A DNA stretch of 14,529 nucleotides, from positions 1 through 14,529 of the forward strand of contig SFQP01000055.1 of NCBI GenBank assembly GCA_004562975.1, read 5' to 3'. The notes beneath the pieces are model-generated. The model worked only from the letters and a program-made list of their open reading frames with translations, was not told the origin of the DNA and did not search any database. The stretch comes from a bacterium (GTDB lineage: Bacteria; Bacteroidota; Bacteroidia; Bacteroidales; Bacteroidaceae). A program made the translations under genes and the position numbers. This document shows positions 6,762 to 7,757 of this stretch, piece after piece (the first letter of the stretch is position 1; each line of letters starts with the position of its first letter).

Positions 6762-7757
6762 TTAGACATTGAAGCGGAAGTGCATGATGTCGCCATCCTG
6801 TACCTCGTATTCCTTACCTTCCACGTGGAGCAGGCCGGCCTCACGCACCGCTGCTTCGGAGCCGAGACGCACATAGTCGTCGTACTTGATGACTTCGGCG
6901 CGGATAAAGCCTTTTTCGAAGTCGGTGTGGATGACGCCGGCACACTGGGGGGCTTTCCAGCCTCGACGGTAGGTCCAGGCTTTCACTTCCATCTCACCGG
7001 CCGTGATGAAGGTTTCGAGTTCGAGCATCTTGTAAGCCGTCTTGATGAGGCGGTTGCAGCCGCTCTCCTCCAGCCCCACATCCTGAAGGAACATTTGGCG
7101 TTCCTCGTAGGTTTCGAGTTCGGCAATGTCGGCCTCAGTCTGTGCGGCCAACACGAGCACTTCGGCTCCTTCGTCCTTGACGGCCTCGCGTACCTCGTCG
7201 ACATAATGGTTGCCCGTGGCGGCACTGGCTTCGTCGACATTGCAGACATAGAGCACGGGCTTGGAGGTCAGGAGGAAGAGTCCTTTGGCGGCCTTCTGTT
7301 CGTCCTTGCTTTCAAACTGCACGCTGCGCGCACTCTTGCCTTGGAGCAACGCCTCGCGGTAGGCAGTGAGGACGGCATACTCCGTCTTGGCATTCTTGTC
7401 GCCACCCACCTGCGCAATCTTCTCCACGCGCTTCATGCGGTTCTCCACCGTTTCGAGGTCCTTGAGCTGGAGCTCGGTATCTATGATTTCCTTGTCGCGC
7501 ACGGGATTGACCGAACCGTCGACATGAACCACATTGCCGTCGTCAAAGCAGCGCAGCACGTGGATGATGGCATCCGTTTCGCGGATGTTGCCCAGGAATT
7601 GGTTGCCGAGGCCCTCGCCCTTCGATGCTCCCTTTACCAAACCGGCAATGTCGACAATCTCGACCGTGGTGGGCACGATGCGTCCGGGATGAACCAGCTC
7701 GGCCAGCTTGGTAAGGCGTTCATCGGGCACGGTGATAACGCCGCATTGTAAACTCAT
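6762..7757 (-). CDS. ychF: YchF/OLA1-family ATPase missing the P-loop segment
   Basis: YchF (OLA1, Obg-related) is a ribosome-associated ATPase of the TRAFAC class, normally about 363-367 residues. This ORF has 331. Downstream of the N terminus everything is typical: the G3 motif DIAG at 36-39 followed by LVKGASKGEGLGNQFL; the family-specific NxxE motif NVDE at 173-176; a coiled-coil region (about 85-165); and the C-terminal TGS domain (HTDFEKGFIRAEVI to the end HFRFNV). Residues MSLQCG are joined directly to VITVPDER at about 7737-7742. In homologues about 36 residues lie between these, including the P-loop GLPNVGKST and switch I. The reading frame is kept. The ATG at 7757 matches the family start, and a -7 box lies just upstream, so this is not a missed start. 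As read, the protein should not bind nucleotide normally. It could be a real deletion or an assembly error. Confidence 0.9.
   Translation of the reverse strand: MSLQCGVITVPDERLTKLAELVHPGRIVPTTVEIVDIAGLVKGASKGEGLGNQFLGNIRETDAIIHVLRCFDDGNVVHVDGSVNPVRDKEIIDTELQLKDLETVENRMKRVEKIAQVGGDKNAKTEYAVLTAYREALLQGKSARSVQFESKDEQKAAKGLFLLTSKPVLYVCNVDEASAATGNHYVDEVREAVKDEGAEVLVLAAQTEADIAELETYEERQMFLQDVGLEESGCNRLIKTAYKMLELETFITAGEMEVKAWTYRRGWKAPQCAGVIHTDFEKGFIRAEVIKYDDYVRLGSEAAVREAGLLHVEGKEYEVQDGDIMHFRFNV

Follow-up and report, generated by a model that had tools for sequence, protein, structure and literature searches.

Can YchF be made without the motif that binds its nucleotide, or did the codons of that motif vanish somewhere between the cell and the contig? 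The question is raised by a ychF gene in a stretch of Bacteroidales DNA of 14,529 nucleotides (the window; Table 1), whose Alloprevotella affinity takes its name from the source label of entry P0010. The product of this gene begins with MSLQCGVITVPDER... (the start is also written MSLQCGVITVPDERLTKL), and in it MSLQCG is directly joined to VITVPDER. Ten close relatives read MSLQCG-IVGLPNVGKSTLFNCLSNAKAQSANFPFCTIEPNVG-VITVPDER, which by alignment puts 36 residues, or 108 nucleotides, between the two words. An earlier note, made from the sequence alone, had described the same junction, with P-loop and switch I missing, and had estimated the loss at 36 codons; alignment to the relatives confirms the first statement, and the second is exact for close relatives. 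The G1 P-loop (GxxxxGK[ST]) is absent from the open reading frame, and the switch I/G2 region (FPFCTIEPN) falls inside the missing residues. The remaining frame is open, with no other damage within the gene: G3, NVDE and the TGS domain are all present and in frame, free of frameshift or stop as the note had said. The NVDE motif, at residues 173-176, is the altered G4 (NxxE instead of NKxD) that belongs to the definition of YchF/OLA1 in the excerpted text of PMC8779481. The product scores 405.5 bits against the YchF equivalog model TIGR00092 (cut-off 279.2), over profile positions 41-368 of 368, and is 98% identical over aligned residues to YchF of the intact relative L081. The window contains no N. 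A P-loop piece displaced to another place in the window was looked for and not found: the best tblastn match of the missing 36 residues there has an E value of 0.27, and comM's own, at 1294, is the one Walker A pattern that reads without a stop anywhere in the window.

Table 1. Features of the window that bear on the ychF gap (positions from the first nucleotide of the window).
Feature	Position	Strand	Remarks
lgt, prolipoprotein diacylglyceryl transferase	5895..6743	minus	18 nt downstream of ychF
ychF CDS, 331 aa, ATG start	6762..7757	minus	TIGR00092; usual length 367, codons for residues 7-42 absent
C-terminal TGS-type domain PF06071, residues 247-330	6768..7019	minus	retained; 130.9 bits
G3 motif DIAGLV, residues 36-41	7635..7652	minus	retained; within low-confidence model stretch (pLDDT <50, residues 39-53)
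Putative deletion junction GGC/GTT	7737..7742	minus	GGC is a 3-nt microhomology in 19/39 relatives
Retained ychF start ATGAGTTTACAATGCGGC (MSLQCG), 18 nt	7740..7757	minus	identical to L081
GH95 glycoside hydrolase	7946..10408	minus	upstream of ychF; same upstream neighbour in L120 and L122
GH92 glycoside hydrolase	10784-13132		neighbours GH95
gyrB, cut by window edge	13299-14528		409 residues within window

The junction lies at 7739/7740. The GGC codon (7740-7742) precedes both ends of the segment in the relatives counted in the table, and not in the other 20, so that the position of the break is ambiguous by three nucleotides. The earlier note had placed the ends at GGC and GTCGGC. Its GGC is borne out by these 19 relatives; of five relatives, one (L103) has the guessed GTCGGC at the far end, three have GTGGGC and one GTGGGT. 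Two further routes to the loss were tried and rejected. Deletion between two PNVG-coding copies, which form a longer direct repeat (12 identical nucleotides in L081), does not fit a junction that keeps QCG, not PNVG. As for a loss driven by a hairpin, the single-stranded DNA of three relatives folds no better than shuffled sequences (z 0.29, -0.15 and -1.11).

Comparison with the ychF of relatives, which the earlier note had proposed, showed the segment to be intact in every locus examined. We assembled 119 related loci (L001-L119), of which 80 are the top-ranking among 590 confirmed stretches of a genome collection and 39 come from whole family and genus genomes. By motif, 118 of them have the P-loop upstream of G3 and in frame with it, and the remaining one, L078, is intact on reading; of two other motifs, a stricter start motif missed L002, which had passed the P-loop/G3 test, and a third found 113 of the 119. 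Of 58 genomes of the nearest genus, 54 give a ychF match, one each, with open frames of at least 357 residues. The four others have no match, and to the lgt-TPR stretch of the window two of the four give just 34-nucleotide matches. The wider family sample gives a ychF match in 286 of 301 genomes. Among the matches listed, nine of these 301 genomes show two (G101, G113, G130, G176, G186, G191, G195, G211 and G274); the two matches of G211 have equal scores and lie on contigs 29 and 30, where an overlap of contigs is likely. No genome of the same species is present among the 58 of the nearest genus: the best nearest-genus identity is 78% over most of GH95, with pieces shorter than 120 nucleotides reaching 89%, and the best ychF identity among the 39 loci compared is 86%.

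Proteins tell the same story. A search scored on residues 1-45, with one row per 90%-identity cluster, was followed for the best 120 of 7996 matches, and in all of these the alignment covers 89% of the 45 residues; any protein sharing the junction should have come out on top. The words of the junction occur in none of the 224 proteins fetched, these 120 included. Nor does a YchF without P-loop appear in the titles and abstract openings of the top-listed papers that pair YchF with pseudogene. Two entries deserve mention for their P-loop region: P0172 (one contig) is a full-length YchF reading PNVRKS instead of PNVGKS, and P0121 looks frame-shifted there, its normal reading resuming at NVGVITV.

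How uncommon, then, is a clean internal gap in a YchF entry? It is not uncommon. Fourteen of the 224 fetched proteins lack one internal block of 8-90 residues, in frame, while keeping both termini and matching an intact reference at 92% identity or better (P0069, P0104, P0108, P0152, P0171, P0177, P0178, P0180, P0184, P0185, P0186, P0187, P0203 and P0217); P0202, divergent and with a 10-residue gap, and P0126, P0129 and P0130, which combine gaps with truncation, were left out of the count. All fourteen are among the best 120 of 7996 clusters, a listing in which cluster rows over-represent gap-bearing singletons relative to sequences, and 13 of them have one contig. These metagenome entries share with the window ychF a single internal loss and two intact ends. 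They are unlike it in the place of the loss: the gaps have 12 different starting points, from 82 to 268, none in the P-loop, in a ranking on residues 1-45 that disfavours gaps within those residues. P0178 and P0180 have their gaps at almost the same place (268, differing by one residue), as do P0186 and P0217 (122, differing by two), and the background gaps are therefore not purely random; some of them, including these pairs, may be real variants or recurrent errors. The pairs cut both ways and leave the odds of the various readings unchanged. Isolated in-frame losses thus belong to the normal background of such YchF entries. P0001 and P0002, with one contig each, contain internal duplications of their own sequence (127 and 146 residues), perhaps the duplication counterpart of the same class of artefact.

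Relaxed selection, which the earlier note had considered, was not seen: over the 325 codons shared with relatives, the substitutions resemble those of intact sister species, and the comparison that it had suggested points to ordinary purifying selection. The window differs from L102, L103, L081 and L101 by 10, 11, 7 and 8 residues, with dN/dS values of 0.026, 0.028, 0.020 and 0.015, respectively. Values against the seven close relatives (L081 and L101-L106) range from 0.015 to 0.041, and against 15 relatives from 0.015 to 0.088; among the seven intact relatives themselves the control range is 0.010-0.053. None of 185 invariant sites is changed in the window, which has no private residues, and the seven controls likewise show no changed invariant site and zero to two private residues. 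A tree built from 40 sequences places the window beside L081 and L101 (support 0.855). Parsimony assigns to the window branch three replacements, all conservative (I→M, T→S and E→D), as against 51 silent changes; the corresponding figures are 2/35 for L081, 1/46 for L101, 1/47 for L102 and 2/45 for L103; the remaining terminal branches, pooled, have 394/2607, from which the window does not differ significantly (Fisher p 0.15). Neutral drift is expected to give some three replacements per silent change. The ratio of 3 to 51 therefore leaves room for a short neutral phase, just some 5% of the window branch, a rough bound as silent sites are partly saturated, so that the loss of this part of ychF is either very recent or not real. 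The remaining codons bear no pseudogene sign of relaxed selection, and a very young allele would not show any.

What would such a protein still be able to do? The window protein has G3, NVDE, the helical domain and the C-terminal domain in common with YchF/OLA1 (TIGR00092; structures 8kie, 1jal, 2dby and 2ohf), which differ from it in having residues 7-42, with P-loop, helix 1 and switch I. In a model of intact L081 YchF strand 1 spans residues 4-9, helix 1 residues 15-22 and strand 2 residues 40-45; the loss would accordingly cut both strands in half and remove everything between them, P-loop, helix 1 and switch I included. The model of the 331-residue form is confident except at residues 1-5 and 39-53 (the switch II area), an area that is weaker in the intact model as well (block means 69 and 68). 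Since an alignment made of intact relatives pulls the prediction towards the native fold, and since switch II is weak even in the intact model, these models say little about the folding of the shorter form. At E ≤0.001 its model matches 15 PDB chains, all of them YchF/OLA1, as against 100 for intact L081, whose matches, among those listed, extend to the G domains of Obg and FeoB. ATP binding and hydrolysis are expected to be absent.

The residue numbers of Escherichia coli YchF are taken here to be the same as ours, which is consistent with the numbers in the papers. In the excerpts of PMC8138138, a probe at N20 of the E. coli protein gave prominent cross-links, with uS5 identified in the cross-linked sample, and left ribosome binding undisturbed. 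The excerpts of PMC8779481 describe the N-terminal ATPase domain as a major ribosome contact, suggest contacts on both subunits, and give S16 as a phosphorylation site and C35 as a dimerisation site. The same excerpts describe E. coli lacking ychF as able to grow, as cold-sensitive, as losing in competition under non-stress conditions and as more resistant to reactive oxygen species (ROS); an ATPase-deficient mutant does not rescue the cold sensitivity, and ATP-site mutants, when overproduced, lack the effect that overproduction has on ROS sensitivity. The ATP-site mutants (P11/N12; excerpts of PMC8138138 and PMC8779481) are like the window form in that the nucleotide site is abolished. They are, however, point changes in the G domain, whereas the window form loses in addition a strand, a helix, a switch and the positions of S16, N20 and C35. 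Together these observations lead one to expect a null product, and make a dominant or scaffold role unlikely.

The other genes of the window that could be compared show little damage. The order GH95-ychF-lgt-TPR-TlpA-like-comM is the same in L120 and L122, the GH95-ychF spacer being longer in L120, and adjoining GH92 and GH95 genes are usual in gut Bacteroidales that live on glycans. Alignment of lgt is gap-free in five of seven relative loci, with a one-residue gap in the other two; that of TPR is gap-free in five of five, that of GH95 in L120 and L122, with two gaps in L126. For comM the gaps amount to 1-2 residues, and the TlpA-like gene is gap-free in three loci, with gaps of 9 residues in L120 and 33 in L121. 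GH92 and gyrB had no match among the relative loci compared for gene integrity. Judged from these alignments, the window genes compared give no sign of a generally poor consensus or of a long-range chimera. Given the gene order of L120 and L122, a chimera of distant loci is unlikely. Words shared across species, which might have tangled the assembly, were also considered and find no clear support as a special cause: of 333 segments compared, the missing one comes 17th for identity but only 64th, 74th and 90th for shared exact runs of 21, 27 and 31 nucleotides.

Between the readings that remain we lean, with moderate confidence, towards a one-off artefact of library or assembly, which we place slightly ahead of a young null allele. 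The contig copy of an otherwise normal ychF, single-copy in relatives, would have lost 108 nucleotides when, in library preparation or assembly, the consensus was set by a molecule that was chimeric or had slipped, or by a faulty local join; the real ychF of the organism would then carry the missing codons, as we infer, and the protein without P-loop would not be a form kept in nature. The 119 intact loci, the single open ychF in each of the 54 matched genus genomes, a junction that recurs in none of the fetched proteins, the unrelaxed selection and the base rate of gaps all count in favour of an artefact. Against it speaks the geometry of the break, clean and in frame (one chance in three) on three nucleotides of microhomology, as in a real slipped deletion; a three-nucleotide repeat is also far too short for ordinary k-mer collapse, and comparable genes of the window show little other damage. 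The only moderately raised sharing of exact runs argues against a tangle of the assembly graph, the conserved gene order against a join of distant loci, and the near-coincident gap pairs, which argue against purely random gaps, were entered on the same side. Much of this geometry serves the competing view, to which we give an appreciable but smaller chance, that slippage or end joining across GGC produced a genuine and very young 108-nucleotide deletion in the strain. GGC at both ends in 19 of the 39 relatives and a gene damaged nowhere else and still in frame agree with such a null allele. Its product could not bind nucleotide via the G1 motif and its G domain would probably misfold; the cell would live on, since it can do without ychF, as E. 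coli does. A transient advantage is even imaginable, knowing that loss of ychF raises ROS resistance there (PMC8779481, excerpts). Yet every related locus is intact, the DNA folds offer no help, and the want of neutral drift (3 against 51) confines the loss to roughly the last 5% of the branch.

The two other explanations fare much worse. A decaying spare paralogue, with a second intact ychF elsewhere in the genome, is the least credible of all: the doubled matches in nine of the 301 family genomes, among the matches listed, would allow for it, G211 being probably a case of overlapping contigs, but the gene is single in all 54 genus genomes where it is matched, and the conserved ychF-lgt setting marks the window copy as the ancestral locus. 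Very improbable, too, is a maintained, nucleotide-independent YchF that would bind the ribosome or partners by its helical and TGS domains and act as a scaffold or a dominant inhibitor. An open frame that passes the YchF model, a structural model confident outside residues 1-5 and 39-53 that matches YchF structures, conserved remaining codons, the contacts on both subunits suggested in the excerpts of PMC8779481 and the solved 50S complex 8kie can all be quoted for it. The conservation, however, is that of intact species, as youth would explain; the junction recurs in no other sequence examined; the structural model leans on the alignment of intact relatives and finds 15 PDB matches where L081 finds 100. 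Moreover, the missing part holds the cross-link position N20, though a probe there left ribosome binding undisturbed (PMC8138138, excerpts), the loss hits the N-terminal ATPase domain, and the E. coli mutants fail in cold rescue and ROS effect (PMC8779481, excerpts). The earlier note had offered either a real deletion or an artefact. That choice still stands, with the geometry of a deletion and an artefact still likeliest; its nucleotide-blind YchF that may keep partner binding is not supported. A dominant inhibitory or maintained form finds no support, as no sequence examined shares the junction and the ATPase-deficient mutant behaves as a loss of function in E. coli (PMC8779481, excerpts).

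It would take a great deal of luck for the boldest version to be true, namely that an Alloprevotella-like strain of Bacteroidales has as its sole YchF a stable protein without P-loop, docking through its helical and TGS domains without control by ATP and too recently fixed for its codons to have drifted. Were the form real and maintained, a universally conserved ATPase would be shown to function with no nucleotide site. On present evidence the value of the case is one of caution: since 14 of the 120 listed YchF clusters carry clean in-frame gaps, an open reading frame does not by itself testify to a new form of the protein.
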